Source: Salinarchaeum sp. IM2453 (GTDB taxonomy: Archaea > Halobacteriota > Halobacteria > Halobacteriales > Salinarchaeaceae). Taken from it: a stretch of DNA of 64,000 bases. The position numbers were made by a program, and so were the translations under genes. The DNA lies in the NCBI RefSeq assembly GCF_019693215.1, contig NZ_CP081183.1, positions 2,111,226-2,175,225 on the forward strand, in the 5' to 3' direction. The notes below the pieces were generated by a model. The model saw only the letters and a list, made by a program, of their open reading frames with translations, was not told where the DNA came from and searched no databases. Shown one piece after another: positions 3,119-61,161 of this stretch; the stretch's first letter is position 1; the number at the start of each line of letters is the position of its first letter.

Positions 3119-3303
3119 TCAAAACGTATGAAAACAGACCTTCAAATAGCATATATGTTTGCACAATACGCCTACAGTACCTCACGGAGCGCAATCCTGA
3201 GCACGTTATTTGTAAACATACTCTGGGGGTAATCGCGCCAAGTACCTGTACAAACAGCCGCCAACCGTAGCAGATATGCAGTTGGTATGTAATAGAACGA
3301 ACT

Positions 3304-4053
3304 GTGACTGATACACATTCACCTGCGGTTGCTGTCGTTGGTCCCCAGACGCCTGGAAACATCGGGACAATTGCACGCGCAATGAAGAATTTCGGACTTG
3401 AGGAGTTGCTACTTATTGATGCTCCTGAACTTGACCCAGACGGGGAAGCATACGGATTTGCGGGACAGGCCCGAGACGATATTCTACCAAACCACCGACG
3501 ACCGTCGTTTGATGAGTTGGTATCTTCGTATTATACAGTCGGCTTTACCGCTACTACTGGCAAAAATTCAGAACAGCATGTTCGGTTTCCATATACAACG
3601 CCAGCTGAGCTGCACTCCGAGCTCCAGTCTGTGAAGGCACCCACCGCACTTGTGTTCGGCCGGGAGGACAAGGGCCTGTCTAATCAAGAACTATCTCGAT
3701 TGGACCGCGTCTGTTCTATTCCTGCTAGTGGTGAGTACCCGTCACTCAACCTTGGACAAGCAGTGACCGTGACACTGTATGAACTCCGATCACTGACTGG
3801 ACAGCAATCTCAGTTATCAGATATTGACCATGAACGAGCTGATGAGGTGCAAATAGAGCGTCTCTACGAAATTATCGATCAATATTTGGAGGCAATAAAT
3901 TATACAGACGAAAAGCATGACAAGACGATGAGATTAGTGCGCCGACTCTTTGGGAGGTCTCATCCGACAGAAAGAGAAGTAATTACATTAATGGGGGTAT
4001 TTCGTCGAGGGGCTCAGTTTGCGGATCCACCAGAGAATTCTGACCAAGAGTGA
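3304..4053 (+). CDS. trmJ: SpoU/TrmH-family tRNA 2'-O-methyltransferase, TrmJ-like
   Basis: A 249-residue SPOUT-class methyltransferase with a GTG start. The N-terminus VAVVGPQTPGNIGTIARAMK is the classic TrmJ/TrmH signature with the conserved Asn of motif 1. Motif 2 is FGREDKGLSN (about 118-127) and motif 3 is IPASGEYPSLNLGQAV (about 138-153), forming the knotted SAM site. The C-terminal ~80 residues are an archaeal TrmJ-type helical extension. By family, it should methylate the ribose of a nucleotide in the anticodon loop, usually position 32. It converges with gatE, with 3 bases between the stop codons. Confidence 0.82.
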   Translation: MTDTHSPAVAVVGPQTPGNIGTIARAMKNFGLEELLLIDAPELDPDGEAYGFAGQARDDILPNHRRPSFDELVSSYYTVGFTATTGKNSEQHVRFPYTTPAELHSELQSVKAPTALVFGREDKGLSNQELSRLDRVCSIPASGEYPSLNLGQAVTVTLYELRSLTGQQSQLSDIDHERADEVQIERLYEIIDQYLEAINYTDEKHDKTMRLVRRLFGRSHPTEREVITLMGVFRRGAQFADPPENSDQE

Positions 4054-4056
4054 ATT

Positions 4057-43508: not shown

Positions 43509-45008
43509 CAGCGAGAGAACCCCGCCCTTCCCGTGAGCGACGAGTGTTGCGATGCTCAGTCGGAACCGAGGAGCGAACAGGGCAGGTGAATCGCGTACGC
43601 TCAGGGAAACTGCCAACACGTTCCTACTGACTGGATATTCAACATCTACTCATAATTAGTTACTACATTGTCATAGACTATGTATAGTGAATCTGGTCAC
43701 GACACGTACTATTACAGCGACACTCACCAACGACCGTGAGGGTGTCGTGCGTGAGCTGGATTCACTCGGTCGTTCCGGCAGTAAAATCTGGAACGTTGCT
43801 CGGTGGACCATCAGCCGCATCTGGGATCACACGGGAGAAATCCCCGACGAAGGACCGCTCAAGTCCTACATGAAAACACAGGGCTACTGGAAAGACTTGA
43901 ATGCCCAATCCAGTCAGGCAATCGTCGAAGAATTGTCTGGCGCTTTCCAGTCGTGGTTCCAACAGGACGATCCAGACGCGAATCCACCGGGCTACCGGAA
44001 ACACGGTGATCAGCGACCACGTAGCACGATCACGTTCAAAGAAGACGGGTTCAAACTCGACACCAAACACCAGCAAGTCCGACTGTCGAAAGGCAAGAAC
44101 CTGAAGGATGGATGGGCCGACTTCGTCCTCTGTGAATACGACACCGGCCCTGACGCAAGCTTGGCTGGTGTTGAAGATGTCCAGCAAGTCCGGGCAGTGT
44201 GGGCTGATGACCACTGGGAGTTGCACTTCGTGTGTAACGTTGCCATCAACGTCCCTGATCCCCCCGGCGAAAAGACGGCTGGTGTTGACCTCGGCATCTG
44301 TAATACAGCAGTAGTCTCAGTCGGTGACGAGACACTGCTGTATCCTGGTAACGCCCTGAAAGAAGACGTCCACTACTTCCGGCAGAAAGAGTACGACACT
44401 GAAGGTGAGAACGGTCCCTCACAGACCGCAGAGTGGGCACGAGCGAAAAAATCACGCCGCCAGACACATGTCCTGCACGCGGTATCGAAAGATATCGTCG
44501 ACCAGTGTGCAGAGCGTGGTGTTGGCACGATCGCGGTCGGCCATCCAAAGAAGATCCGGGAGGATGAAGATTGGGGACGCCACGGTAACAAACGGCTGCA
44601 CGACTGGGCGTTTGAGACGCTGATTGAGCAGGTCGAGTACAAAGCTGAAGAACGTGGAATCGACGTTGAACGAGTTGATGAGTCTGAGTTGGCAACGTCG
44701 ATCAGCTGTTGTGAGTGTGGCACGAAAGCTGATTCACACCGAGTTGAGCGTGGGTTGTACGTCTGTTCGGCCTGTGGACTGGTCGCCAACAGTGATCTGA
44801 ATGCGGCAGAGAACATGCGAGTGACGGTAACTCCGAATCCCTCACAGGATAGGAGTAACGGCTGTCTGGCCCAGCTATCGGTTCGCCTGTTCGATAAACA
44901 AACGGGGCGAGTAGCCCCACAAGAACAGGTGCGACCGTAACCCGGCAAATATCCCAACGCTGCGGTGCGGTTCGGGAAGCCTCGTCGTTCACGACGGGGA
45001 GGATGTCA
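43509..45008 (+). mobile_element. Complete 1500-bp TnpB-only element (family C)
   Basis: The left end cagcgagagaaccccgccct, including an imperfect hairpin, is followed by tnpB and then a right end with the strong hairpin gcctcgtcgttcacgacggg and the terminus ggaggatgtca. The same ends bracket a 513-bp derivative (10729-11241), and the right end is shared with elements at 35349 and 57758 and with several relics. No TnpA is present. The 3' part of tnpB plus the right end is the expected source of the guide RNA, whose guide would be the host bases from 45009 on. Confidence 0.85.
43687..44940 (+). CDS. tnpB: RNA-guided endonuclease TnpB, RuvC-II glutamate displaced
   Basis: A 417-residue TnpB with a GTG start. 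RuvC-I Asp201 (GVDLG) and RuvC-III Asp370 (NSDLNAAENM) are present, and the zinc ribbon has Cys342/344 and Cys360/363 (CECGTKADS; CSACG). The usual motif-II Glu is missing: the strand reads VGTIAVGHPKKIREDEDWG, with Gly where Glu is normal and Glu292/Glu294 a few residues on. TnpBs with a rearranged second catalytic acid are known, so it may be active. A Trp- and Asp-rich N-terminal domain (~1-190) precedes RuvC. Confidence 0.88.
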   Translation: MNLVTTRTITATLTNDREGVVRELDSLGRSGSKIWNVARWTISRIWDHTGEIPDEGPLKSYMKTQGYWKDLNAQSSQAIVEELSGAFQSWFQQDDPDANPPGYRKHGDQRPRSTITFKEDGFKLDTKHQQVRLSKGKNLKDGWADFVLCEYDTGPDASLAGVEDVQQVRAVWADDHWELHFVCNVAINVPDPPGEKTAGVDLGICNTAVVSVGDETLLYPGNALKEDVHYFRQKEYDTEGENGPSQTAEWARAKKSRRQTHVLHAVSKDIVDQCAERGVGTIAVGHPKKIREDEDWGRHGNKRLHDWAFETLIEQVEYKAEERGIDVERVDESELATSISCCECGTKADSHRVERGLYVCSACGLVANSDLNAAENMRVTVTPNPSQDRSNGCLAQLSVRLFDKQTGRVAPQEQVRP

Positions 45009-45762: not shown

Positions 45763-47445
45763 TCACCGACTGACAGGCTCGTCAGACAATCCTGAAAGAT
45801 AGCGAAGATGCTCTTCTTTGAGACGAGAGATTTCTTGGTTATCTTCACATACTCGCTGTATATTCTCAATTAACTGGTTTGATGCTAGTCTATCTGGAAG
45901 GGCCACGAATGTTGCTCCCATATCAAGTAATTCTTGGGCATTAACCGGATTATCTGCTTGTACGATAATATCCGTTTCTGCTGCATACTCGATAAGGGAT
46001 CTAGAGAGCGGATCGTAATCAACTGTCGAGACAACGAGGTTTGCTTGTGATACGCGTGCTTTCTCCATTGGATATGATGCCATCGCGTCACCAAACACGT
46101 AGTTTTGACAGTCTGACTCGAGTGCTTTGCGTTGTACTGGATCATTTTCGACAACAACATATGGCTCATTTAGTGCTTCAAGTCGTCGTACAAGCTGCCG
46201 TGCCTTTTGACTGTATCCAATAATTACGGTATGATCCTCGAGTGTCTTATCGACAGAACTGTGTTCATCTACCTGTCGAGTTCGATGCTCATTTATTATA
46301 TACGTGCTAATTATACTATATAGCGTCTCCTCGTAGCGACGAATGAGTGCAGTAGCTATCATCGTTATTGCTGCTGCCAAAATAATTGCATTGAATAAAT
46401 CTTGAGCAATCGTCCCAAGCATCCATGCCTGAATGGCGATGATCAGTGCAAATTCGCTTGTTTGTGTTAGTGCTGAGCTTGCAAAGAATGATGTTCGTAT
46501 GTCGTATCCCTCATATAGAAACGCAACAGTGTATATAGCGGGATTGACAAACAGGACAAGGGTAATCAAAACAGCAGTCAGCACAAGTGTTTCAATCGTC
46601 GGTAATTGCACCAGAGCACCGATTGTGACAAAGAAAACTGCAGCGAAGAAATCTTTAATTGAGTTGATTCCATTGCGAACTGTCAACGCTTCTTCACCTG
46701 TATCTCGAATTGCTAATCCGGCAGCAAAGGCTCCAACAACAATGGAAACATTCGTTATTTCAGCGGCGGCAATAAATGCAATCAGAATAGAAATACTTCC
46801 CATTAATACAAGCTCATCCGATCCACCAGCGATCCGAACAAGGATTGGAAATCCGTAGCGATAGAAGACTATACCGGCAAGTAGCAATAGAACGCCAACC
46901 CCAATATTTGACGCGATTAACTGTGGATCTGTAAGTGTTTCTGCCGAGAGAATCAACACTAAGCCAATTGCAATAATGTCATCGAAGAAGTGTATTGAAG
47001 AAGACAGTCGCCCGTAGACAAGATTATTCTGGATTTCATTCGCGAGTATGCCTGATCCTACAATCGTTGAGCTAAGGATCGCAGCGGCGGCGAAATAAAT
47101 CGCATTTCGACTGGGGTGTTCAAAGCCAAAGGACAAACTCAATCCATATCCAATGCTTGCGGCAATTACGCTTACGACAAGGAGTTGCGTAACCGCTGGA
47201 ATCTCTACATCTCGGAATACCAACTGAATATCGCTTAAATCAATGCGAATTCCAAATACGAATACTAAAAATGCAATTCCCCATTGTGCAAGATCGATTA
47301 TGTCATCTGGAGAAATGACTACCCCTGCGATGACACCAGCTATGATATAAAATGGAATAATTGGATAGCTAAACTGGTTAGCCAGTAGGAGCAGTGCACC
47401 TGCAGCAACGAATACGACAGATAGCGTAATAATGACTTCAGTCAT
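45763..47445 (-). CDS. CPA2 cation:proton antiporter with TrkA-N domain (DD type)
   Basis: A 560-residue antiporter with 11-13 helices in residues 1-370 and a TrkA-N/RCK domain at about 400-530 (DHTVIIGYSQKARQLVRRLE). The unwound-helix ion site has SSTIVGSG followed by FFDDIIAI (Asp155-Asp156). The nucleotide loop is GYSQKA, a weakened GxGxxG. It is the last gene of the uspA-antiporter-antiporter operon, overlapping the previous gene by 4 bases. Its closest relative in the window is at 59515. It should exchange K+ or Na+ for protons. Confidence 0.88.
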   Translation of the reverse strand: MTEVIITLSVVFVAAGALLLLANQFSYPIIPFYIIAGVIAGVVISPDDIIDLAQWGIAFLVFVFGIRIDLSDIQLVFRDVEIPAVTQLLVVSVIAASIGYGLSLSFGFEHPSRNAIYFAAAAILSSTIVGSGILANEIQNNLVYGRLSSSIHFFDDIIAIGLVLILSAETLTDPQLIASNIGVGVLLLLAGIVFYRYGFPILVRIAGGSDELVLMGSISILIAFIAAAEITNVSIVVGAFAAGLAIRDTGEEALTVRNGINSIKDFFAAVFFVTIGALVQLPTIETLVLTAVLITLVLFVNPAIYTVAFLYEGYDIRTSFFASSALTQTSEFALIIAIQAWMLGTIAQDLFNAIILAAAITMIATALIRRYEETLYSIISTYIINEHRTRQVDEHSSVDKTLEDHTVIIGYSQKARQLVRRLEALNEPYVVVENDPVQRKALESDCQNYVFGDAMASYPMEKARVSQANLVVSTVDYDPLSRSLIEYAAETDIIVQADNPVNAQELLDMGATFVALPDRLASNQLIENIQRVCEDNQEISRLKEEHLRYLSGLSDEPVSR

Positions 47446-49244
47446 TGTTCACCCCCCGATGTTTGTATATCAATATCGACCTCAGCGGCTGGGTAATCTT
47501 CATCTGTGTGCGTATCAACTTGCTGTTCAATCCATCTAATCTCCGTCTGAATTTGCTCTCTAAGCTTTGTCCTGTCTGTAACGTACATTTCGAGATAATC
47601 ACTCAACTGATCGGCTGTTAAATGAGATGTTATCACAACATATGCTGCCCCTGCTTCATACAGTCGATGGGCGTCTTCGGCGTTTTCAGCTTCTGTGAAT
47701 ACAATCGTCTCATCGCTTGTTTCTGAGAGAAGAATCTCATTTACTTCCCGTTCCACACTTGAACTCAGCACGAAGTTAGCATTTTTCAGATTTGCTGCCT
47801 TGCGGACTTCTTTATGTTTGAAATCACCAAATATATGTTCGTATTGGTCTTGTTTCTGCAATTCTGAGCTGTGTTCTGTGTCTCTATCAATGACAACAAC
47901 TGTGTCAAATTCCTCGTTAAGCACTGGAAGAGCTCGTTTCGTAACCTCGTCATAGCCAATGGAAACCACATGGTCGCCGTATTCAGACAACTCTTTGTCA
48001 GTCCCATTGTCTGAGGCAATTCGCTGAAACCATGGCTCAACACGCTCGTAGATCGTATGATTGTGGAGAATGACATATGTCGACACTGTCATCGTTAGCA
48101 GGGCCATCAGTGTGAGGTATCCAAGTACATCGGCTCCAATGTACTCTTGTTGGAAAGCAAGTGCTCCAACGACAAGTGAGAACTCACTTACTTGAACCAT
48201 GTTGATTGAGCCAAGAAAAGATGTTTCGACGCTAAATCCTTCTCGATCAATCAGATAGAACATAATCCAGAAGTTTCCAATCATGAGGACAACAGACGCG
48301 ATTATCGCTTCCTGCCAGTATGCAAGCAAACTTCCAAGACTTTCGATTTGAAGGCCGATCGACGCAAAGAACACAAGAATGAAGAAATCTGTAATCGGAG
48401 TAATACGGTCCTGTAATTCCTTGCTATATGGAAGTTGTGCAAGGCTGATTCCGGCGAGGAATGCTCCCACCTCAACGGAGAGGTCAAACAGTTCAGCGAT
48501 TGCGATAAACAAAAATACCCAAGCAACTGCAACGATGAGAAAGACATCCTTGTTGTCTGCGATCCGTTTGAACAATCTTGGCAAAAGGTAGCGAGATGAA
48601 GCAATTGAGAAAATCCCAATAAAACTCATCATAACAAAGATAACAGCAAGTGTACTCGCAATTTCGCTGAGGTTGCCGAGTTGATCAGCACCGAATAAGG
48701 CAAGAACAACAACAAGATAGATATCTTGTACAATAAGCACCCCGACATCAATCTTGCCAGGGAGCGATGAAATTTCATCTTTATCAGTAAGTACCTTCAC
48801 AATTATCGGAGTTGCACCGAACACAGTTGCTAAAGCAATGACTAGAATCTCTTGTGTAGCAAATCCAAGCAAGACTGCGACCAAGAGTGCTAATGCGGTT
48901 TGTAATATCGTCTGTCCGATTGCAATATTAGTAATTGGCCTTAGAATCTCGCGGATATCTTCAAGCCGCATTTTAAGCCCAAGCAGAAAGAGGAGGAACC
49001 CAAGCCCAAGCTCGGCCATATCATCAATCAGGCCTTCATCAGTGACGATGTCTAATGCTACTGGACCAAGTAGCACGCCTGTAATGATGTACGCCACGAT
49101 GGTGGGTTGTCCGAATTGTCGTGCGAGTAACCCAACAAGAGTAGCCACAACGATAACGATAGCAAAATCAGCGGCAAGCGTGAAATCACCTAATGTACCA
49201 ATCTCCTGAGCCCCGTCGAGAGAATATCCTTGAAGCATGTACAA
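47442..49244 (-). CDS. CPA2 cation:proton antiporter with TrkA-N domain (QD type)
   Basis: A 600-residue KefB/C-like antiporter. The ion site has Gln173-Asp174 in KIDVGVLIVQDIYLV, and the preceding helix reads ATVFGATPIIVK in place of SST. The C-terminal TrkA-N domain begins DHVVSIGYDEVTKRALPVL (about 415), which lacks the glycine-rich loop GxGxxG, so nucleotide binding is doubtful. It lies between uspA (6-base gap) and the DD-type partner (4-base overlap). It is the paralogue of the split gene at 57272-59431. Confidence 0.88.
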   Translation of the reverse strand: MYMLQGYSLDGAQEIGTLGDFTLAADFAIVIVVATLVGLLARQFGQPTIVAYIITGVLLGPVALDIVTDEGLIDDMAELGLGFLLFLLGLKMRLEDIREILRPITNIAIGQTILQTALALLVAVLLGFATQEILVIALATVFGATPIIVKVLTDKDEISSLPGKIDVGVLIVQDIYLVVVLALFGADQLGNLSEIASTLAVIFVMMSFIGIFSIASSRYLLPRLFKRIADNKDVFLIVAVAWVFLFIAIAELFDLSVEVGAFLAGISLAQLPYSKELQDRITPITDFFILVFFASIGLQIESLGSLLAYWQEAIIASVVLMIGNFWIMFYLIDREGFSVETSFLGSINMVQVSEFSLVVGALAFQQEYIGADVLGYLTLMALLTMTVSTYVILHNHTIYERVEPWFQRIASDNGTDKELSEYGDHVVSIGYDEVTKRALPVLNEEFDTVVVIDRDTEHSSELQKQDQYEHIFGDFKHKEVRKAANLKNANFVLSSSVEREVNEILLSETSDETIVFTEAENAEDAHRLYEAGAAYVVITSHLTADQLSDYLEMYVTDRTKLREQIQTEIRWIEQQVDTHTDEDYPAAEVDIDIQTSGGEQ

Positions 49245-49250
49245 AAAGCA

Positions 49251-49709
49251 TTAACTATTAGCCAGTGAGTTTATTTGCTGCTTTTCTGTGGTCTGAGGAA
49301 CAGCAAGAACCGGTGCAGGCGACTGTTGAAGAACCTGTTTTGCTGTATTCCGATTCAAAAGCCGTTCAACACCTGTCTGACTTCCGGTGTGTACAACTAC
49401 CAGATCAATTTGTTGTATCTCAATATATCGGACAATCTCTTTGACAGGATATCCAGTAGAGACTGATCCGGTAATATCGTCGAATCCCCGTTTATTTGCC
49501 TGCTGGTAAACCTCCTGCATTGCCTCACAGTCAATATCTTCAAGATCGGTATTGAACACGGGAGGTCTGTCAAGTTTCTTAGGAACTGTATTATTTACAT
49601 ATAGTGCATGAAGCGTCGCATCATAGTTATCAGCAAGATTGACAGCAAGTGCAGCAGCTTCCTTTACGTGTCCAGTCCCATCGGTTGGTATCAACACTCG
49701 TTCCATCAC
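49251..49709 (-). CDS. Universal stress protein, first gene of the antiporter operon
   Basis: 152 residues (two adjacent Met codons at the start) beginning MERVLIPTDGTGHVKEAAAL. The C-terminal loop VHTGSQTGVERLLNRNTAKQ departs from the ATP-binding consensus (the G-S/T pair is replaced by RN), so ATP binding is uncertain. It is followed 6 bases later by two antiporter genes. Domains of this type often regulate CPA transporters, here as a separate subunit. Confidence 0.82.
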   Translation of the reverse strand: MMERVLIPTDGTGHVKEAAALAVNLADNYDATLHALYVNNTVPKKLDRPPVFNTDLEDIDCEAMQEVYQQANKRGFDDITGSVSTGYPVKEIVRYIEIQQIDLVVVHTGSQTGVERLLNRNTAKQVLQQSPAPVLAVPQTTEKQQINSLANS

Positions 49710-49927
49710 AGACTCAACTATATTTTAGGGAAGCACACGTGTCATTCTTTCATTCACTTTCATTCTGGGTAAACTAGAACCCGAAAATAGGTAAAAAAAC
49801 AGGTCTCATTGGATCTATTTACGGATACTAGTATTCAAACTCTGATAATAGCTCTAAAATAATGAAATATATTAAATATTTTGAGTCAACCACTGTCTGA
49901 TGTTCACTAAGTGTTAAAAATAGATAG

Positions 49928-50052
49928 CGAGATGGATTTCTGTCCCACTCTGGGTGGAACCATCAGTCGTCTGGTCGGAAGAACGTCACTCAGTACGCTC
50001 TTAATTTAGGGCTAAGAATGTCAAGTGAACTGGATACACCAGTCCATCCATT
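49928..50052. repeat. Dispersed repeat D, copy 2
   Basis: A ~125-base stretch with accatcagtcgtctggtcgg-aag and the ends gatggatttct and gtccatccattc, parallel to copy 1 at 42124-42243. It lies in the ~400-base gap between the stress-protein start and the DUF7521 gene. The remainder of that gap is A/T-rich promoter sequence. Confidence 0.5.
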
Positions 50053-50112
50053 CTGTCTCAAATTTGATCTGACTGACAGGCCATATGACAACCGCACCCA
50101 TCCGGATCGGAG

Positions 50113-50424
50113 CTATCGGTCGTATTGTAGTACGGAGTACGCGATACAGGCCAGCCCAAATCCAATTAGCGCTGACTCAACTGTATAGAGAGCGAGAAGT
50201 TGCCCGTCCTTTAGTGGACCGGTATCAATCATTCCTGGGGCATAGAAGGCCTCTACGATTGTGCTGACGGTAATAAGTGCAAAGCCAAGCGTCGTGTACC
50301 GGAGACTTTTATGTTCAAACCGCTGCTGCGCCTTGTAGCTAAGAATAGTGAGTGTACTTCCGACGACGAACACGAGTAGGTTCGCTAGTTGTCCACTCTG
50401 GCTTAAGAGACCAGTTGCTGACAC
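50113..50424 (-). CDS. Small membrane protein, DUF7521-like
   Basis: A 103-residue protein with three helices (about 12-30, 45-62 and 78-100) and the linker YKAQQRFEHKSLRYTTLGFA. It resembles DUF7521 membrane proteins of haloarchaea, which usually follow a winged-helix gene on the same strand. Such a gene is present at 51939-52337 on this strand, but a transposase element has landed in between. The promoter it now uses is unclear. Confidence 0.6.
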   Translation of the reverse strand: MSATGLLSQSGQLANLLVFVVGSTLTILSYKAQQRFEHKSLRYTTLGFALITVSTIVEAFYAPGMIDTGPLKDGQLLALYTVESALIGFGLACIAYSVLQYDR

Positions 50425-50429
50425 ATAGT

Positions 50430-51790
50430 GATCAGAATGACGCGACTGAATCAGTCGCCTGATTCAGCCGCTGTCCGGATTCCTGTGTGTGATGGAGTTC
50501 CCAAGACTCAAACGCATCCTCACAGATCCGGACGAATACATTTCGAACAGTCAGTTGAAGTCTCTTAGCATGGAGTTGCTTGAGCTGATACCGATGGACG
50601 GAATCGAGGCCGGAGCCCTCGATTCCGAGGAGATCATGGAAGTCGTCTTACGAGCTGCTGTTGACACAACCTCAGTCAACGGCGTCACGACACACACTGA
50701 GGACACGCCAAACCGCGAGACAGTGATGGACTGGTTGCACACCCTGGACAAAAAGCCGATGCTTGATGCGGTTAACGATATCCTCGCACTGGTGGCAATG
50801 ACGGTTCTCGACCGCGACCGGTCGAGAACCATCTGTCTGGACTTCATGGACAATCCGTTCCACGGTCATCCAGACGACGAGGACGAGTTCAGGAGGATGC
50901 AAGCACGCGACGGAACGACGAAGTGTCACCGGTACTGTACTGCGTTCGTCATCGCGCAGGGAAAGCCACTGACACTAGCGGTCGAACCAGTCGACGGCGA
51001 GGACAGCAAGGCGGACGCGGTCGAGCGCGTGCTCGCCTGCGTCAAGAAATACCCATTCGAGATCGACCAGATTCTCATGGACAGGGACCCCTTTGTCGGG
51101 GAGTTAATCGGTGTGCTTCGGGAGACAGCACCGCCAGTCTTTCCGGTCATAACCCGGAAAGACTCGCTCCGAGAGAAACTCTCCAAGACCGCGTCACATA
51201 TGACCGAAGAGACAATCTGTGAAGGGAAGGAGCACGAACAGACATATCCACTGGCGGTGAACGTCACCTATCAGAACGGTGACCGCGGGAAGTCTGGTGT
51301 GAAAACGACGGGATACGCGGCGTACGGTCTGGAAGACCGCACGCCCGCGCAAGTCGCTACAGTCTACGACAAGCGTTCACGGATCGAGAAGAGCTACGAG
51401 AAGTTCCGAGAAGCGCGTGCCCTGACAACAACGCCTTCGACGACAATTCGGCTCTTCTACGTGGGCGTGGGGTTTCTGTTGGAGCAGCTGTGGCTCGTGT
51501 TACAGTGGGCGGTGCTCGCCCGTCCACAGCGTGGCGGGCGAGCACTTCCCGAAACGTTCACGTTTGGCGATGCGTTTCTGCATGGGGTCGAACGGGTGTT
51601 AGATGATGAACTCGGCTGGAAGGAGAAGCATCAGACGAACGGAGAAGGACTCCCACCAGGATACGACCACGGACTCGGTTAATCCGCCTCGCTTCGCCTG
51701 AAGCGAGGCTGGCGAACAGCGACAGCTGTCTTCGGAGATCGGTCTGAGCGACGACTATAGTCGAAACCAACCAGATTTGTGACTGTTCCT
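50430..51790 (+). mobile_element. ISH3-type insertion sequence (ends approximate)
   Basis: One transposase gene with a higher G+C content than the neighbours. The left flank has a near-palindrome gcgactga-atcagtcgc (about 50440), and the right flank has a strong hairpin gcctcgcttc-gcct-gaagcgaggc (about 51687-51710). I could not match terminal inverted repeats or a target duplication, so the borders are estimates. Confidence 0.6.
50489..51682 (+). CDS. ISH3-family DDE transposase
   Basis: A 397-residue IS4-like transposase of the ISH3 type. The catalytic triad is visible as Asp in CLDFMDNPFHG (about 111), Asp in QILMDRDPF (about 193) and Glu in KRSRIEKSYEKFREA (about 295), the last with the Y-(2)-R/K-like spacing of this group. 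The substrate DNA is the ends of its own element. The gene looks intact. Proline- and glycine-rich tail after residue 345. Confidence 0.82.
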   Translation: MMEFPRLKRILTDPDEYISNSQLKSLSMELLELIPMDGIEAGALDSEEIMEVVLRAAVDTTSVNGVTTHTEDTPNRETVMDWLHTLDKKPMLDAVNDILALVAMTVLDRDRSRTICLDFMDNPFHGHPDDEDEFRRMQARDGTTKCHRYCTAFVIAQGKPLTLAVEPVDGEDSKADAVERVLACVKKYPFEIDQILMDRDPFVGELIGVLRETAPPVFPVITRKDSLREKLSKTASHMTEETICEGKEHEQTYPLAVNVTYQNGDRGKSGVKTTGYAAYGLEDRTPAQVATVYDKRSRIEKSYEKFREARALTTTPSTTIRLFYVGVGFLLEQLWLVLQWAVLARPQRGGRALPETFTFGDAFLHGVERVLDDELGWKEKHQTNGEGLPPGYDHGLG

Positions 51791-51938
51791 CAACTCTTCG
51801 TGGTGTCAGAAGTGTACTTCGTCTCGTATCGGCGTCCTTACGGTGTCAGACCGGACTCTTGCTGCCACCGCGATCAAGAGAATGGACAACTAGCGAGGTT
51901 GCTGGCTACGAACATCCAAACTTCTACATCAATCATGC

Positions 51939-52337
51939 TTATTCCTCCGTTTGTGAGTCTGGCTCCGATTGGTCAGTTGAATCCGGATCTCTGCGCCCCT
52001 CCCCAAGATCACGGAACAACTTTCCAAACTTGTCCACAGTGTCTTTTTGCACACGGATATCCACGTTGTAACTACCATTCTCCACAACAATATTGATTTC
52101 CTTTAGATCAGTTGAATACTGCTTGTATTGGCCATCTTCTGGATCAACAACTTGCTGTTCAGAAAGAAGATCATAGTTCTGGAGCATCTCAAGACGACGA
52201 TAAATCGTTGGAAGGGATGCATCACATACCTGTTCTAACTCTTGAGCGGACATAGGTCTTACACTTGCTGCCGCCAGAATCTCTCGACTTATCTCGCTTG
52301 AAAGGGCCTCAAAGATATCATCCGGATCACTTGTCAT
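51939..52337 (-). CDS. Winged-helix transcriptional regulator (ArsR-like)
   Basis: A 132-residue regulator. The winged helix is at about 5-70 (IFEALSSEISREILAAASVR; LPTIYRRLEMLQNYDLL), typical for haloarchaeal regulators next to DUF7521 proteins. The C-terminal part (KEINIVVENGSYNVDIRV) is a short beta segment, then an acidic tail. The presumed partner gene lies at 50113-50424, separated now by the insertion sequence. The distance between the two without it would be short. Confidence 0.75.
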   Translation of the reverse strand: MTSDPDDIFEALSSEISREILAAASVRPMSAQELEQVCDASLPTIYRRLEMLQNYDLLSEQQVVDPEDGQYKQYSTDLKEINIVVENGSYNVDIRVQKDTVDKFGKLFRDLGEGRRDPDSTDQSEPDSQTEE

Positions 52338-52475
52338 TATTGATCGTGGCCGTGTAGAGTTAACACCACAAACGAGTGTCGTCAGACTTGTTTACCTACC
52401 GGTATTTGCATAACCTACTGCTCGGATAACAACTAACTCCCTACTGAATACTAAATAACGGTGTTAGTACAGGAT

Positions 52476-53867
52476 ATGTCCACCAAAACAAGATCATCAC
52501 TGGTTCCGACGACAGCATTATTGCTCGTCAACTTGATCCCTCTTGCTGGCATCTTGGTGCTTGATTGGAATCCCAGGCTTGTTTTAGCCCTGTACTGGTT
52601 CGAATTCGCTGTTGTCATCTTACTTAATGTGGCGGGCGTGCAGAAAGGTTAGCACATCTCTACTGCCTGATTAGAGATTTCGGCTCAAATCATTATTTCA
52701 TCTATACCAGGCCGTATTTTGAGGATCTGGCGCAGATAGAGATCAGCCGGTTCAGCCCTGTGAACACTTCTGCACGCCCGCCTTAATGTGCCAAAAATTA
52801 TGCTTGCCGAAGGGGATCGTACTGGGCGGTTACCAGACGATATCCAACTGTCTCCAGAAGGTCCATCAGTTCGGCTCGGGAAAGCGTGGCTTGCAGTCGC
52901 TTCACTTGTCATATATGGAATGTTTTTCCTTGTAATTACTCGAGGATCCCCAATTTGGGACACACTCACTGAAGTTATGAGTACAGATGCTGAGTTGCTC
53001 ACAGTAGGTACTGTGGTTCTCGCTGTGGCAGCAATGGCTGGGTCTCATCTTTTTAAACTACAACATGATTTTATTGGTAATGAGGAATACACGAATGTTA
53101 CACCAGAATTCCAAACAGCTCGATTAGTCGGACAACTGTGGCTTTTCCTTGCTGTGCTAGTTTTTGCAGGTGGAATACAGTGGCTTGAAACAAATCCTAC
53201 TTTTCTTGCTGCCATTTTGATTTTGGTTAAAGGAACCGGCGACGTAGCTGCTTCCCAGCTGCTTGGTATTACTTCACCAACTGTGGCACCGTTCTCAAGA
53301 GAGACATCTCCGGAAGAATCGCCAGAGTGGACCGGAACCCCGAGCATACGGCCATTGCTTGTTGTCCATGGACTCATTTTCGCTGTTGCTGCACCAATAG
53401 CGACGCTACTGACAGTTGGGATTTATGGGGGTATTCTGCTTGATCTCCTCAAATGGCCATTCTATGCGACAGTGATGTTCGGTGGTTTTCTGGCTATCAG
53501 CACCGTCGGATTATGGCTCTTCGGACTGGCAGTTATATACTACCGCTATCGCTATCTTGAGTACCGTGTATATTCTCACGGCCTATGTATTTACAACACC
53601 CGTCATGAGACAATTGCTACGTACATCCCAGCACACAAAGTCAGTGAGTGTATGATTTATCGCGGAATCTTCGGCCGCATATTTGGAACGGGAGTAATAC
53701 GAGTCCGGATGAATGACACTCAGCATGCCGGCAGGTGGACACTCCAATCGGACATTGTCCCCGGCCAGAGCGCCCGTGTAACCAGTGATGACGAGGAGAT
53801 GATTCAGGACTTGCCCTCGATTTCTGATCCAGAATCGGTACGTAACCAGATCAGCTGGTGGCAGTAA
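52476..53867 (+). pseudogene. DUF6498-type membrane protein split by a 150-bp MITE
   Basis: Before insertion the gene would have encoded ~410 residues. The N-terminal 52 codons end ...FAVVILLNV, then the MITE, then a repeated ctt-aat-gtg and PKIMLAEGDRTG onward. The stop codon in the insert (ggt-tag) separates the halves, but the insert plus duplication is 159 bases, so the frame is kept. The protein has ~8 helices and a PH-like C-terminal domain (residues ~290-380, YNTRHETIATYIPAHKV). The second half from 52788 could still be translated. Confidence 0.7.
52632..52781 (+). mobile_element. 150-bp MITE with 14-bp perfect TIRs
   Basis: Both ends carry gcgggcgtgcagaa in inverted orientation, with further imperfect pairing inside. 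Direct 9-bp copies of cttaatgtg flank the element (52623-52631 and 52782-52790), a clear target-site duplication. Removing the element and one copy restores the reading frame of the host gene. The internal ~110 bases encode nothing. The family of the mobilising transposase is unknown to me. Confidence 0.85.
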
Positions 53868-54092
53868 TAACTGAACCGTATATAATACACTCTACACACG
53901 GCCCCAGTGAACAAGTAGGAAGTAATTCTGGGGCTATATATGAAACGACTATTTCAAAGGTATAATTTGATTACTGATTGTATTATGTACTATACTCACT
54001 GACAATCAGCAATTTCTGTACCAAGTGGCGGGTTCGGTATCTTGAGCTTGTGCTGTTGTTTCTGTCTTTGGATGCTATTCGCAACTAGTGGA

Positions 54093-54212
54093 ATGTTTGA
54101 ACTTGGAATTTATATTACTGCGTTGCTCGGCTTTGTAGCTCTTGCTCACGCCGAACTTAACGTGTATCTGGTTCTGTGGAGGGAAGGTGGGATAGATCCC
54201 AACAGCTCATGA
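54093..54212 (+). CDS. Possible short membrane peptide or gene fragment
   Basis: 39 codons beginning MFELGIYITALLGFVALAHA, one hydrophobic helix then a polar tail. It may be a fragment of a larger decayed membrane gene, since hydrophobic stretches occur in other frames nearby. The 650-base interval 53868-54518 otherwise contains only this and the IS right-end relic at its right side. Confidence 0.25.
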   Translation: MFELGIYITALLGFVALAHAELNVYLVLWREGGIDPNSS

Positions 54213-54477
54213 TGGCACATGATGGGCACGCTGGGAATTACGGAGATTATTAGCCTCCTTACAATCACTATATTATATATCATTGATCAGACAAACCTTG
54301 TCATGACCAGGATTGATGCTGGCAGGAGAGTAATATTTACTTCCATCGTCCGAATGCTTGTAGTGGTCCCTTGCTCCGTAGTGACTTGCTTTCGATCCGC
54401 TACTGAACCGGCATTTGGCGACGGACCCCAATTAGTATGGAAAGATATAACGTAGCGGTCGGTCGAAAGTCTCCGAG

Positions 54478-54538
54478 GTGTTCGGGTTATTATCCCAGCG
54501 TTTGGGATTCCTCCGCCTTCAGGCGGGGGAGGATGCCA
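54478..54538 (+). mobile_element. Family C right-end relic
   Basis: Bases tatcccagcgtttgggattc followed by the hairpin cctccgccttcaggcggggg and aggatgcca are the same pattern as the right end of the complete element at 44950-45008. The upstream ~30 bases show weaker similarity. It cuts the last codons of the HTH gene on the other strand. Confidence 0.6.
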
Positions 54539-54938
54539 ATGGAAAGTCAACGTCTACTCGAACCGTATCATACGGCAGATATGACGTCATCATATCATCA
54601 GTCTCGGTCACCTCAATAACTCCGTGGCTTGAGAGTAATTTAACATCATTGCAAACGGTCTCTGTTCCTCGATCAACTACCCTTGAGAGCGTCTTGATAT
54701 CAACAGGTTGCGCTGATTCAACCAATACGTTGAGAATCTCCATTCGCTGTGGTGTAACCACTTTTTGAAACGCATCTGGCGTATTAAGCACAATGGTCTT
54801 ATCTGGATTTACTGCCCGTTCTCTGCTAGGTAGTGTTGTTTCCTGATCTATATTGTCCGTGGGTATAACCCATAATTGCAAGACTCGCTGGTCTTGGTCC
54901 TTCGCGTTATGTTCTTTGTCGTTATCATTGCTGCTCAT
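54519..54938 (-). CDS. HVO_A0114-type HTH regulator, C-terminus altered by IS relic
   Basis: 139 residues when started at MSSNDNDKEHNAKDQDQRVL. The winged helix spans about 60-120 (VVTPQRMEILNVLVESAQPV; LSRVVDRGTETVCNDVKLLS), and the C-terminal LPYDTVRVDVDF is the family hallmark. The last four codons (SSPA) and the stop are contributed by the IS right end, so a few native residues are lost, but the core is whole. It is probably still functional. Confidence 0.6.
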   Translation of the reverse strand: MSSNDNDKEHNAKDQDQRVLQLWVIPTDNIDQETTLPSRERAVNPDKTIVLNTPDAFQKVVTPQRMEILNVLVESAQPVDIKTLSRVVDRGTETVCNDVKLLSSHGVIEVTETDDMMTSYLPYDTVRVDVDFPLASSPA

Positions 54939-55212
54939 ACACTCTGTCAAACTCCCGTTAATTGATAGTCAGCGTAGGCACTCTGCTGTTTTACCGACTG
55001 CTGCTGCCTATCCCCGCATGTCTTGTGTTGTGTATCGTCTATCGAACCAGTTAGTCATTTTGTCCAGACCAACTAGTTCAATAATTTATATTCAAACATA
55101 ATAATAATTCCCCACATGTGTAATATATATTACTAAACCGCTTGGCTTTTTCAGAACAGGAGAAAGACACGGTCTCTAGCCAGATTATCGATAGTACTGC
55201 TCTACTACGGTT

Positions 55213-55590
55213 GTGCCAATTTAACATTTACAGGCTACGTTCTCGTCTTCTAGGACTGACCGGTGTTGACTACCTCGGTATCAAGTAGTTCGAGAGGTGA
55301 AGCGTCTTGTCATCACGGAAATTTTCGATTTCTGTACGACCCCGAAGCTTGTTAGTGGACCCCTGTTCTCCCCGAGCGTAGTTCGGTAGGCCTGGTCTGA
55401 CCAGTCACACTCAACGCCCCTACCTTGCGGGTTGATTGACTGACACCCCGTAACTCACAACGCTTTGGGCTGTGAGTCACTGTGCTTTCGTGTGGATTCA
55501 AACTAAGTAAATGGTTATGGTCAACTACGTGTCGGCTTCCTCCAAAGGGGGGCAAGCCCTGTGGCATCCGCCTCGTACCGCCTGTGAATT
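55213..55590 (-). mobile_element. Composite IS relic incl. family B copy 5
   Basis: The left side (55213-55245) has the tttacaggctacgttctcgt motif of family A tails. The right side (55521-55590) is a degenerate family B relic (ggcaagccctgtggcatccg, then cctcgtaccgcctgtgaa). In between is a hairpin actcaca/tgtgagt (55453-55477). No frame remains. The ~700-base interval between the HTH gene and the kinase gene holds only this and A/T-rich promoter sequence near 54950-55140. Confidence 0.45.
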
Positions 55591-55662
55591 TGAATCCAGC
55601 TATGAATCCAGAAAAGTTAGATATCCTGAGGTGCACCTCAGAATAGCTAGTTAGTTTCCAGA

Positions 55663-57114
55663 TTACTTATCGCTAAATACAACGCTTGTAAACTCAAATC
55701 GGGTTCCACCGTCTTTCTCTGCTTTCAGAGTTATTTCCCAGCCATGCGCTTCGATGATGCGACGAACAATTGATAGGCCAAATCCAGTGCCGTCCTTTGA
55801 TGATGAATAGCCGGGATCGAACACCAGATCTTGTCTTTCGTCTGGGATTCCTGGTCCGTTATCCTCGACGAATATACCATCATTGCCATCCAATTGACCG
55901 ACGCGCACAGTAACATCTTGCCTCCCGTGCTCGACCGCGTTGCGAAATAGGTTCTCAAATACCTGTTGTAAGCGACTGAAGTCACCTTCCACTGTCATAT
56001 TATCAACGACCTCTAATGTCGCATCATTAGTGTCGACTTGATTCCAACACTTGCCAACAAGATCAGTTACGTTGATTGATTCAACTTCAGCAATTGTCTC
56101 ACCCTGTCGAGCAAGTGCAAGGGTATCTTCAACGAGAGTTTCGATGCGGTCGAGCGACTCAACAAGCGGGTCAGTATGTGGACTCTCAACTTCCTCTTCG
56201 AGAAGTGCAGCTCGTCCCTGTGCAACATTGAGCGGATTGCGTAGATCGTGTGAAATAACACTTGCAAATTCGTCAAGTCGCTCTTTCTGCCGACGAAGCT
56301 TTTGTTGCTGGTGCTTCTGTGTGGTGATATCTATAAGAAGTCCAATATCAGCGACATTGGCATCATCTCCGGATCCAGTTTCGATCCGCTGGGCGTAATC
56401 ACTCACCCAGCGAATACCCTCCTCAGTCTGAAGACGGTACTCACGCTTATACGAATCTCCAGGCTCAGCCAGTGTTGCTTCCTCCTTTACTAATGATTCG
56501 TCCTCCGGGTGAACATAAGTCAGATATTCATCAGTGGATTTGATGTTAGTTTCCAACACTGGATTTGGTGTCGGATAGGTTTCAACAGCTCCCGTTGCTG
56601 GATCAATTTCATAGATAACACTGGTTGTCGCCTTGAGTATCAGCTCTATACGCTGCTGTGTCTGCTCAAGTCTTTGCTGGTATGCCCGCTGTTCAGTCTG
56701 ATCTCGCGCAATGCCAACAATTTGCGTTACCTGTCTATCTTCGATGATAGGTGTCAGCGTTGTTTGCCAGTATGTTATTCCAGCAGGAACCTCAATCGTC
56801 TCTTCGTAGTTGATCGTATCACGACAATCAACACATCGCTGATAGTTTTCAACAAGTTCAGTTGCTTGCTGAGCGTCAAAGAGGTCTGATGGTGTCTGTT
56901 CCTGCAAGTCTTCCTGGGAAAGACCGGTTCGCTGTTGATGTGACGGATTATTACGTTGGTAACGGAATACATATTCTCCGTCCGTCTCCTCAACATTAAT
57001 CAGAAATATACTGTCATCGACTGTGTCGAAGATCCGCTGATATACCTCCTCGTTTTCATTCGAATCAGAACCAGCGGTATTGATAACTTCATTGCTCTTC
57101 TCTTGATTTCCCAT
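55663..57114 (-). CDS. Two-PAS sensor histidine kinase
   Basis: 483 residues when started at MGNQEKSNEVINTAGSDSNE; a Met nine codons upstream (57141) is possible. It is cytoplasmic: PAS1 (about 22-140, ending GIARDQTEQR), PAS2 (about 155-270, ending GLLIDITTQKHQ), then HisKA with phosphoacceptor His289 (ASVISHDLRNPLNVAQG) and an ATPase domain with NLFRNAVEHG, VEDNGPGIP and GTGFGLSIV. No partner regulator is adjacent. The signal is unknown. Confidence 0.88.
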   Translation of the reverse strand: MGNQEKSNEVINTAGSDSNENEEVYQRIFDTVDDSIFLINVEETDGEYVFRYQRNNPSHQQRTGLSQEDLQEQTPSDLFDAQQATELVENYQRCVDCRDTINYEETIEVPAGITYWQTTLTPIIEDRQVTQIVGIARDQTEQRAYQQRLEQTQQRIELILKATTSVIYEIDPATGAVETYPTPNPVLETNIKSTDEYLTYVHPEDESLVKEEATLAEPGDSYKREYRLQTEEGIRWVSDYAQRIETGSGDDANVADIGLLIDITTQKHQQQKLRRQKERLDEFASVISHDLRNPLNVAQGRAALLEEEVESPHTDPLVESLDRIETLVEDTLALARQGETIAEVESINVTDLVGKCWNQVDTNDATLEVVDNMTVEGDFSRLQQVFENLFRNAVEHGRQDVTVRVGQLDGNDGIFVEDNGPGIPDERQDLVFDPGYSSSKDGTGFGLSIVRRIIEAHGWEITLKAEKDGGTRFEFTSVVFSDK

Positions 57115-57271
57115 TGCATAATATATGTTTGGTAGATACAAAAGTAGTCAGTTCTGTGCGGCCACTGTGATATTGCCCCCATCTATGTGATTCGTAATCT
57201 CTGCTCCCAGAATGATAGCTACCTGAAGGAACCCAGGCAATCTTCTATACGGTGGTTTTATTTCCTTCAGA

Positions 57272-59431
57272 GTGTTTTCAGAACAGACAAGTCAAGTGGT
57301 TACTGATATCGCACTCACTGTTGATCTCGCAATCATTCTATTGAGCGCAGCATTACTCGGGTTTGTCGCCAGACAGACCGGACAGCCCACAATCATTGCG
57401 TATATTGTAGCAGGGGTACTTATTGGGCCTGTTGCCTTCGGAATTGTCGAGGTTACGGAACTGACTGAGACGCTCTCAGATTTCGGGCTTGCATTTCTCC
57501 TCTTTTTACTCGGAATTAAGATGCGGCTTGATGATATCCGACATGTTCTTTCTCCAATTGTTAAGATATCAATTCCGCAAATGACAGCCGTTGCAACTGT
57601 CGGATTTGGAGTTGCTTACGTGCTCGGGTTTTCGCTTCTTGAGTCAGTTATGATTGGTCTGGCGGTGATGTATAGCTCGACGGCAGTTGTAATTAAGATG
57701 CTTACTGACAAGGGTGAAGCAACGACCCTTCACGGAAAGATCGATGTTGGTGTCTTACAGCGTTAGCAAGGCGAAAGCCCACCCGTTTACGGGTGTGGAT
57801 AAAGCCAACAACTGGGAATCTATCCACGGGACTGAGCTATCCCGGTGTTTTATCAGCAATCAGAACGTAGACATGACCACGCCGAGGCGGTTTCGCCGCC
57901 CTATTAAACGGATAATATCGGGATTCGGACCACACCACGTCTGAAGGAATCCCCTTCAGGCCGCTGGCTGTGGATTCCGGACACACGGTAACTCTGAATC
58001 CCATGCCGGGATAGGAGTAACGGCGGCTTGGCCCCGCCAGCGGTCTGGTCATGCCGACTGGACTGCAAACCTGAAACTCCCAACCAAGCGGTGCGGTGCC
58101 GTGGGAATCCCACCCCGTTCACGGGTGGGAGGAGGTCAATTGCGCAGGACATCGTCGTTGTTATTCTACTTGCTGTTTTGGCTGCAGGACGACCAGACAG
58201 TGTAGCTGAGATTGGGACAACTCTAGTGATCGTTCTTATACTTGTTGCGCTTATTATAGTTGCTGCATTAGCTGCCTCGAAATATGTTCTTCCGAAGCTC
58301 TTTCGGCGAATCGCCAACAACAAAGATGTCTTTTTCCTAATTGCAATCTCGTGGGTATTTCTGTTTATTTTTGTTTCTGATCAGATCAATCTCTTTCTTT
58401 CGCCACTTGGTATCGAAGCGTATCTCTCTATTGAGATGGGAGCATTCCTTGCTGGACTGGCAATTGCTCAACTTCCATACAGTAAACAACTACAAGACCG
58501 AGTCAACCCTCTAACTGACCTGTTTGTAATGATTTTCTTTGTCTCTGTCGCACTGGACATTGAAGCAAGCGAACTTCTATTCTACTGGGAGGAAGCGGTT
58601 ATCGCTGCTGCAGTACTTATGCCTGCGAAATTCCTGATCTTCTTTGTCCTCATCAACTGGCAGGACTTCGACATTGAGACAAACTTCCTTGGCAGTCTGT
58701 ATATGATTCAGGTTAGTGAGTTTGGCATTGTTGTCGGTGTTGCTGCACTCGAAGGGAATTTTATCAGCGAAGAGATCCTTGGATTCCTAACTCTGCTTGC
58801 GTTGATCACGATGGCTGTTTCGGTATACTTCATTGCCTTTGGTGACAAACTATTCAACCGATTTGAATCACAGCTATCACGGTTTGAACCTGAGGATACC
58901 TTCTCTGACGGCGCGAAAGATTACTATGAGCACGCTGTTGTTGTTGGATATGATGATGTCACGCGAAATATCCTTCCGTTATTGGATGAACATTATGATG
59001 ATGTAGTTGTTGTTGATCGCCAGGTAGAACATACTGAGGCTCTGAAATCCGCCGGATTTGATGCTGTGTATGGCAACATGAAAAGTGCAACTATCCGCAA
59101 GGACATCGGCTTAAAGAAAGCTGACTTTGTTCTTTCATCATCTGACCAAGTTCCAGTGAATAAAACAATATTAGAGGAAGTACCTGACGATGCGACAGTA
59201 TTTGTTGAGGCTAATACGCAAGAGGAGGCTGATGAACTGTACAAGCATGGAGCTGACTATGTTATTACGAGTGTTGATCTTGCAGCTGATCGATTGGCTA
59301 ATTATCTCCGAGCGCACGCTGAAGGGCGCCCGGAATTCAACCGAGCGATCACAAGTGACGGAGAACTCCTTCGCAACCCGGATCCATTTCCGGAAACACA
59401 TGACCAGATGGTTGGTGATCTTGATGATTAA
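57272..59431 (+). pseudogene. CPA2 antiporter (QD type) split by a 381-bp element
   Basis: The two pieces together encode ~592 residues collinear with the antiporter at 47442-49244. Piece one ends KIDVGVL at 57757. Piece two resumes at 58139 with IAQDIVVVILLAVLAAG, so the element sits two codons before the Gln-Asp ion site. The element keeps the frame (381 is a multiple of 3) but carries a stop codon after 3 codons. The second half includes a TrkA-N domain beginning HAVVVGYDDVTRNILPLL, lacking the Gly-rich loop as in its paralogue. GTG start. Confidence 0.85.
57758..58138 (+). mobile_element. 381-bp non-autonomous TnpB-derived element
   Basis: The left end cagcgttagcaaggcgaaag with the hairpin cccacccgt-tta-cgggtg matches the 299-bp element at 35349. 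The right end (hairpin cccaccccgttcacgggtgg and gaggaggtca) matches the complete TnpB element. Inside is a remnant of tnpB (gataggagtaacggcggctt, equal to the DRSNG part of the TnpB tail). No target duplication is seen, as expected for IS605-type movement; the exact border has a one-base ambiguity because an A occurs at both joints. Confidence 0.85.
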
Positions 59432-59467
59432 TCAAATTACCCGGTATACGTTGCGAAACACGCGTCT

Positions 59468-59489
59468 TCGGCTACTAAGTAGTAGCCGA
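59468..59489 (+). other. Hairpin between the two antiporter genes
   Basis: tcggctact-aagt-agtagccga forms a perfect 9-bp stem with a 4-base loop, in the 83-base gap between the split antiporter and its partner. No T-run follows, so it may be an mRNA processing or stability element and not a terminator. In the paralogous operon the genes overlap and no such gap exists. Confidence 0.4.
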
Positions 59490-59514
59490 CAGCCGATGTG
59501 CGGTGGTGATTGCA

Positions 59515-61161
59515 ATGTCTGAGCTTTTGACAACAGTTGCGGTTCTGTTCATTATTGCTGGACCATTCCTGCTAATCGCCGATTGGTTTGACTTCCCGGC
59601 GGTTCCATTTTTGATCATCGCAGGCATTCTTGCCGGTGCTCTTGTTATTGAGGAAGACGCATTGCTACTTGAGCTGGCTAGATACGGCGTCGCACTGTTA
59701 GTATTTGATTTCGGACTCCGGATTCAACTGGATGAAATCCGAACTGTTCTTGCCGATAGCGAACTTGCTGCCCTTGGTCATATATTCATTGCTGGATCAC
59801 TGGGTACAGGATTTGGATTTGTACTTGGAGTGCCACTTGAGCAAGCGGTCTTTCTGGGTGTTGCTGTGGCACTGTCCTCAACGATGGTTGGAACAGCACT
59901 CTCAAAAACAGAACTCAATATAAATCTCGTTCGTGGTCGATTGGCAGACTCGATCAATTTTGTCGAAGATCTCGTTGCTGTCGGTATTATTCTGGTGGTC
60001 GGAGCAGGGACACTTGCGCCAGATCCTGTCGCAATCGAGCTAGGTTACGGTGTTATGCTACTAATTGGGGCTCTTATTGTCAACCGATACTTGTTCAGTC
60101 TGGTTGGCCGACTGGCGAGTGGATCTGATGAGCTTATGATTGTTGGCGTGGTCTCGTTGCTGGTTTTATTTCTCGGCGCGGCAGAGCTTGCTGGCATCTC
60201 GATCGTTATTGGGACATTTGCCGCCGGCATTGCGGTCCGACACGAACCTGGAGAATATCTCGGTTTGTTCACTGGTCTGGAATCAATCAAGGACTTCTTT
60301 ATTGCAATTTTCTTTGTTACTGTTGGAGCACTGGTTGTGGTTCCGTTCTTCGAGATGCCTGCAGCCGCGTCCATCGAGAAACTCCTGATCGCTTCTGGAT
60401 TAATCATTTTCACTGTGGTGATAAAACCAGTAATCACAGTTGCGACTCTTCTCTACCAAGGATACGAGGCACGTACCGCGACATTAACAGCGCTGACAAC
60501 TGATCAAGTCAGCGAATTCGCTCTGATTATCGCAATCGAGGCGTTGTTGCTTGGCTTGCTGGCCCAGTCTGTGTTTGATGCAATTATCTTTGCTGCCGCT
60601 GTTACAATGGTCACATCGAGTCTCACACACCGATATGACGAACAAATATATCGGTGGCTTGCAGGTCAAAATATCCTCCCGACTCGGCACAGAAAAGTTG
60701 ATGAGCTAAGCCATGTGTCTGAAGATATCTCAGACCATGCCATTATCGTCGGCTATGGAAGAACGGGCAGACAGCTCGTTGAGACGTATGAGGAAATGGA
60801 CGAGCCTTACGTTGTGATTGAAAATGATTTAACCCGTCGTGATGAGATTGCTGCTAAGTGTGATCAGTATATCTTTGGTGATGCAATGAACCAGTATGTT
60901 TGGGAGAAAGCAAATGCCGATGAGGCTAATATCATTATTTCGACAACACTGTCCGAACGAATGTCTAAGCGGCTACTTGAATTTGACTTTGATCCAGATC
61001 TTATACTCCGTGCGACAGAACAGCGCACCGCCCTTGAGTTGCTTGATGCTGGAGCGACATACGTTATTGTCTCAGATCTGCTGGCAGGTGAGCAATTGAT
61101 AAAGAAGGTCCGGGAAGTGCTTGACGACGATGTCAGTTCTGTAGAACCAAAGTTCCATTGA
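59515..61161 (+). CDS. CPA2 cation:proton antiporter with TrkA-N domain (ED type)
   Basis: 548 residues when started at MSELLTTVAVLFIIAG, which aligns with the start of the paralogue at 45763-47445; GTG codons just upstream are alternatives. The ion site has LSSTMVGTAL followed by NFVEDLVAVG (Glu151-Asp152). The TrkA-N domain begins DHAIIVGYGRTGRQLVETYE (~395), with a proper GxGxxG, and ends near 520. It should remain functional although its upstream partner is broken. Confidence 0.88.
   Translation: MSELLTTVAVLFIIAGPFLLIADWFDFPAVPFLIIAGILAGALVIEEDALLLELARYGVALLVFDFGLRIQLDEIRTVLADSELAALGHIFIAGSLGTGFGFVLGVPLEQAVFLGVAVALSSTMVGTALSKTELNINLVRGRLADSINFVEDLVAVGIILVVGAGTLAPDPVAIELGYGVMLLIGALIVNRYLFSLVGRLASGSDELMIVGVVSLLVLFLGAAELAGISIVIGTFAAGIAVRHEPGEYLGLFTGLESIKDFFIAIFFVTVGALVVVPFFEMPAAASIEKLLIASGLIIFTVVIKPVITVATLLYQGYEARTATLTALTTDQVSEFALIIAIEALLLGLLAQSVFDAIIFAAAVTMVTSSLTHRYDEQIYRWLAGQNILPTRHRKVDELSHVSEDISDHAIIVGYGRTGRQLVETYEEMDEPYVVIENDLTRRDEIAAKCDQYIFGDAMNQYVWEKANADEANIIISTTLSERMSKRLLEFDFDPDLILRATEQRTALELLDAGATYVIVSDLLAGEQLIKKVREVLDDDVSSVEPKFH

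Follow-up and report, generated by a model that had tools for sequence, protein, structure and literature searches.

A KefC-like antiporter of Halobacteria that is probably built from two different subunits

Introduction

KefB and KefC of E. coli are glutathione-gated K+/H+ exchangers. KefC forms a homodimer through both its membrane and its RCK domains, and each half binds AMP (PMC11150392). Its K+ ligands are Q155, D156, and T127, and K307 in TM11 neutralizes the half-helix dipoles (PMC11150392). Residues are numbered here as in KefC, so that positions 6 and 7 of TM5 correspond to residues 155 and 156, and position 8 corresponds to residue 307 in TM11. Position 8 is K or R in 95% of CPAs, and the combination of an acidic residue at position 6 and K at position 8 goes with electrogenic CPA2 transport (PMC6181914). 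The closest solved antiporters, KefC and NapA, are homodimeric, and the contribution of each half is hard to probe in them.

Here we describe two pairs of CPA2 genes in a 64,000-nt stretch of the genome of Salinarchaeum sp. IM2453 (the window) and their relatives in the class Halobacteria. In these pairs, an antiporter of the KefC type, ordinarily symmetric, is probably assembled from two different subunits.

Results

Two gene pairs encoding CPA2 proteins with a TrkA_N domain are present in the window. We refer to the upstream, QD-type gene of each pair as B and to the downstream gene as A. Pair 1 (45763-49244, minus strand) consists of B1 (47442-49244), encoding a 600-aa QD-type subunit whose TrkA_N domain has GYDEVT in place of the GxGxxG loop, and A1 (45763-47445), encoding a 560-aa DD-type subunit with the loop sequence GYSQKA. 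Pair 2 is on the plus strand. Its B2 is an interrupted QD-type gene with a 5' part (57272-57757), which is open up to an insertion point, and a 3' part (58139-59431), which encodes the QD of TM5, the remaining TMs, a TM11 K, and a TrkA_N domain with GYDDVT. A2 (59515-61161) encodes a 548-aa ED-type subunit with an intact GYGRTG loop and a TM11 K. Every gene part of both pairs matched PF00999 (68-174 bits vs. a cut-off of 26.2 bits), and PF02254 was above its cut-off in A1, B1, the 3' part of B2, and A2. The preliminary description of this DNA was accurate in its placement of four CPA2/TrkA_N genes, as well as in the TM5 motifs and the Rossmann loops that it assigned to them. The TM11 lysine is replaced by N in both B1 and A1. 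The A1 loop is degenerate, which is unusual among A subunits, so neither subunit of the intact pair has a canonical nucleotide loop. Only one other PF00999 gene was found in the genome; it stands alone at 1.38 Mb and encodes a protein of 648 aa.

AF2 models of B1 and A2 (pLDDT 78 and 83, respectively) both end in a Rossmann domain followed by a terminal helix. The best PDB match of both models was KefC, followed by NapA. About 570 columns could be matched to KefC, with whole-chain TM-scores of 0.55-0.62; these moderate scores are probably due to differing placement of the two domains. Against TIGR00932 (2a37), B1, A1, and A2 scored 170, 68, and 70 bits, respectively, below the curated cut-off of 238, and against the KefC/KefB equivalog models they reached at most 142 bits, below the cut-offs of 752-804. 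B1, A1, and A2 are divergent members of CPA2 (TC 2.A.37).

The B2 ORF that begins at 57272 runs into a stop at 57764 and continues in frame past 58138. The interruption is a 381-bp IS200/IS605-type TnpB-less element (57758-58138, plus strand) with six in-frame stops and terminal palindromes, inserted between KIDVGVL and IAQDI of B2; the B1 counterpart reads KIDVGVLIVQDI. The 3' part of the insert (57986-58130) gave a sub-threshold match to sot0042 (RF02656), an RNA of TnpB elements. Dozens of partial relatives of the insert occur elsewhere in the genome, and full-length copies are present at two further sites (99% and 97% identical). We rejected an intron-like origin, because Rfam gave only sub-threshold matches (sot0042 and HgcC) and because the complete copies present in the genome, including two with CTTA as a common left flank, fit a transposable element. 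B2 has no further stop or frameshift outside the insert, and the insertion therefore looks recent. Thus, pair 2 has lost B2 to recent transposition, which leaves pair 1 as the only intact copy in the genome. The preliminary description had treated the gene at 57272 as intact and the arrangement as fixed in two copies; neither statement holds for the present genome. The region between the two pairs looks rich in mobile elements, and a long transposase-like ORF lies there at 50489-51682. Near pair 1 is an intact-looking gene for TnpB, an RNA-guided protein (43687-45000), with an above-threshold sot0042 (RF02656) match at its 3' end (44825-45000).

We searched the class with A2 (E ≤ 1e-20) and B1 (E ≤ 1e-45) as queries. 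A and B were present in 45 of 292 genomes, the same ones for both, in a scan that scored the best four or so candidates per genome and that extra stand-alone copies in pair-bearing genomes may escape. Examination of 74 loci, in which every long ORF was classified, gave 96 B-A pairs when the window was included, with up to four pairs per genome. In all 96 pairs B preceded A on the same strand, and 82 had an overlap of exactly 8 nt between the A start and the B stop; B and A are translationally coupled. The genes had been said to overlap or adjoin at both loci of the window. This is true of pair 1, in which the A1 start lies over the B1 stop (ATGA, a 4-nt overlap), but not of pair 2, in which an 83-nt spacer (59432-59514, plus strand) stands in place of the usual 8-nt overlap. 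The spacer contains an inverted repeat, TCGGCTACT..AGTAGCCGA (59466-59490), whose hairpin is a possible attenuator or terminator.

A scan of named genomes, which shares genomes with the 96-pair set, yielded 75 loci with 88 pairs, three contig-edge cases, and one A without B. The unpaired A (locus L208, 4001-5626, from MAG B1-Br10_E2g27) has no B upstream and may be an assembly artefact. When every candidate was scored in 40 relatives, the leftover B-like matches were weak TM-domain matches or short pieces of fragmented assemblies. Frequent stand-alone occurrence of A or B had been named in advance as evidence against a partnership; neither was frequent in this survey, the single A at L208 being the one case. 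Outside the class, only single genes encoding proteins of about 550-800 aa were met. The carriers include Natronococcus, Natronorubrum, Natrialba, Halorubrum vacuolatum, Halorubrum alkaliphilum, and soda-lake MAGs; we take most of the named carriers to be soda-lake or haloalkaliphilic lineages (those of Natrialba being alkaliphilic), a tally of carriers alone.

No conserved third gene was found near the pairs, the best family being present at 14 of 96. A Usp gene (49251-49709) lies immediately upstream of B1 on the same strand; we discarded Usp as a third subunit because such a gene is near only 9 of 96 pairs. Likewise, an APC permease (at 61306 in the window) was dismissed as a partner, being near only 11 of 96 pairs. 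Two loci carry damaged genes. At L154, B (2986-4719) is split by a single in-frame TAG shortly past TM5 in an otherwise complete-looking pair. At L155 (3026-4747, genome G276), the N-terminal half of B is joined to the C-terminal half of A with an internal TAG, a probable pseudogene. We considered this chimera as a natural B-A fusion proving association and rejected it, since it is a deletion product rather than two whole subunits joined. Open frames of more than 1000 aa at some matches also proved not to be fusions.

In phylogenetic analysis, A (30/30) and B (30/30) each formed one clade with 100% SH-aLRT support. Patristic distances in separate A and B trees of 94 pairs were correlated (r = 0.887, vs. 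a shuffled maximum of 0.126), and the two trees shared 52 of 91 splits. The pairs were duplicated as units. Congruence of this kind is no proof of contact: it is expected of any linked genes that are copied together, and common ancestry with tandem duplication would be enough to yield it. Branches were longer in A than in B. Of the outgroup proteins read, 14 carry an RCK domain, and all of these have QD and keep the canonical loop, indicating that loop loss is derived in B. A stand-alone relative of B from the same phylum but outside the class (L242, genome G488; 546 aa, 33% identity) combines QD and a position-8 N with an intact GMGRFG loop. It may resemble the homodimeric protein from which B descended, and as a stand-alone QD/N protein it indicates that QD/N site chemistry itself needs no partner. 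Identical presence and absence in 292 genomes, fixed and coupled gene order, congruent trees, and the near absence of stand-alone copies lend good support to the suggestion of an obligate partnership.

A GxGxx[G/A] loop was kept in 0 of 96 B vs. 80 of 96 A, and this asymmetry is a rule of the family. The equivalent of R409 is E or D in 79 B and R in 71 A. Loss of the loop from QD members, as read from the window, thus extends to every B, far beyond chance. The accompanying proposal, that the other member keeps the loop or nearly so and provides one nucleotide-sensing subunit, fits most pairs (80/96 A, and A2 in the window), but one A clade and A1 have a degenerate loop.

The ion site is nearly invariant in B. 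Position 155 is Q in 95/95 and position 156 is D in 93/95; the other two (L098 and L129) have QN instead of QD and so lack the essential Asp, and their A partners keep QD. Position 307 of B is N in 63 and K in 33 of 96. In A, position 155 varies (Q, 40; D, 34; E, 17; N, 4; S, 1), position 156 is D in 96/96, and position 307 is K in 46 of 96, the TM11 lysine being absent from the other 50. Both subunits are without this lysine in about half of all pairs. Within A, a neutral residue at position 6 is accompanied by K at position 8 in 45 sequences, and an acidic one by N, S, or T in 50, a linkage that reflects two or three evolutionary events only. The sole A among the 96 with an acidic position 6 and K at position 8 is A2 of the window (E/K). 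This pattern of A and B at positions 6 and 8 departs from both published CPA rules (PMC6181914). The window copies are therefore atypical of the family in two respects, A1 having no Gly loop and A2 alone pairing E with K. "Complementary active sites," in the sense of QD in one subunit and DD or ED in the other, cannot serve as a family rule, given that 40 of 96 pairs are QD/QD; a different ion site in the second subunit applies to about half of the pairs and not to the remainder. We also looked for covariation of site states between A and B partners and set it aside, because only two or three independent changes are involved and statistical support is lacking. At the position of T127, every aligned B (95/95) has T and 95/96 A have T or S, which by the published criterion is consistent with K+ selectivity.

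Discussion

We propose that in Halobacteria B and A together form a KefC-like K+(Na+)/H+ antiporter that is obligately heteromeric, RCK-gated, and most simply a 1:1 heterodimer, and we put the probability of this reading at roughly 0.7. The preliminary description is confirmed in part as an observation and supported in part as an interpretation. A and B are obligately co-made paralogues of a dimeric KefC fold, one of which is always loop-less, so that the simplest arrangement is a heterodimer of A and B in which one half is nucleotide-gated; we infer the physical association and its stoichiometry on these grounds. Each subunit would contribute a CPA2 module for transport and, C-terminal to it, a Rossmann/RCK domain that ends in a terminal helix. 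B would provide a KefC-like QD site. Given that B has lost the glycine loop and that most copies carry E or D in place of R409, the RCK half of B probably has a structural role or responds to a different signal. A, which usually keeps an AMP/NAD-type loop (GYGRxG), would be the nucleotide-responsive half, as in KefC. The TM5 and TM4 signatures predict exchange of K+, and possibly also Na+, for H+, which would probably acidify the cytoplasm in alkaline brine. A more specific version, to which we give even odds, is an asymmetric heterodimer with one nucleotide-gated and one degenerate RCK domain, in which both subunits of the B1/A1-like and ED-type branches have lost the position-8 lysine, and QD/N with DD or ED/N would make a two-site exchanger whose coupling stoichiometry differs between the halves.

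The persistence of A2 in a genome in which B2 is broken speaks against the heteromer. Further points against it are the A without B at L208 (a possible assembly artefact), the degenerate loop of A1, and the stand-alone QD/N relative at L242. A2 without an intact B2 would fit a rival reading in which A and B are two separate homodimeric antiporters, co-transcribed and with complementary duties (e.g., in ion, direction, or regulation), that do not associate physically. Relatives of known structure are homodimeric (PMC11150392), and as both proteins have a full TM core and retain the ion-binding Asp (in 93/95 B and 96/96 A), each could transport alone. However, either gene is almost never found alone, the 8-nt coupling ties the synthesis of both, paralogous pairs show no exchange of partners, and RCK decay is one-sided. 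Pairing, coupling, partner fidelity, and one-sided decay exceed what co-regulation needs, and we regard separate homodimers as unlikely. It also seems improbable to us that the heteromer has one working ion site, with B transporting and A acting mainly as a regulatory pseudo-transporter, or the reverse. Such a division of labor would suit the variable position 6 of A (Q/D/E/N/S), the longer A branches beside a nearly invariant B site, and the loss from some A clades of the RCK loop and of the TM12 glutamate (the E337 equivalent is not E in 12/96). Nevertheless, the key Asp is present in all 96 A, it is two B that carry QN rather than QD, and the linked changes in two A clades (acid gained, Lys lost), although they represent two or three events, look like retuning rather than decay.

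Locus 2 invites an explanation of its own, namely decay of this copy following the hit to B2, with A2 either heading to loss or recruited as a NapA-like (E/D + K) homodimer. B2 was broken by a recent element (a 99% identical copy exists elsewhere, and there is no other lesion), the 8-nt coupling between B2 and A2 is gone, and A2 is the sole A with the acid-6/Lys-8 combination tied to electrogenic CPA2 transport (PMC6181914). All of this concerns one sequence only, and the change from Q to E at position 6 takes a single nucleotide and may have come before or after the insertion; we consider this fate of locus 2 possible but doubtful.

An obligate hetero-pair of natural and ancient origin, if the heteromeric reading is true, would allow each half to be mutated separately, making site independence and RCK gating directly testable. 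The pair may also help to explain how haloalkaliphilic archaea control cytoplasmic pH in soda brine. Our results suggest that annotation of two "Kef-type" genes hides one system. We found no earlier description of a heteromeric CPA2 in the literature searched, which had most subscription journals outside its reach.

Paired SMR proteins of the EbrAB type are two-gene heteromeric transporters. Like A and B, they are coupled paralogous genes each needing the other, but fold and substrate are unrelated and the likeness is an analogy only. NapA of Thermus thermophilus (4BWZ, 5BZ2), an electrogenic Na+/H+ antiporter, shares the fold of the transporter core and has a DD motif like that of part of the A clade. 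Its matched chains comprise the transporter module alone. NapA is a homodimer, and it pairs D at position 6 with K at position 8, whereas the DD and ED A subunits have N, S, or T at position 8, except A2 of the window. YbaL (NF007950), a putative K+ efflux transporter, gave the top NCBIfam score of both A1 (90 bits) and A2 (114 bits), and its RCK structure entry (3FWZ) matches the A2 RCK domain; these scores are far under the 700-bit family cut-off, and YbaL is a single gene. KefC and KefB (PDB 8BXG, 8BY2, 9EMB) remain the best sequence and fold match of both A and B, sharing the CPA2 fold with a C-terminal RCK/TrkA_N domain and, with B, the QD motif. In contrast to homodimeric KefC, the haloarchaeal system has no conserved ancillary gene, its B never carries the glycine loop, the TM11 lysine equivalent to K307 is absent from 63/96 B and 50/96 A, and two diverged subunits take the place of one.
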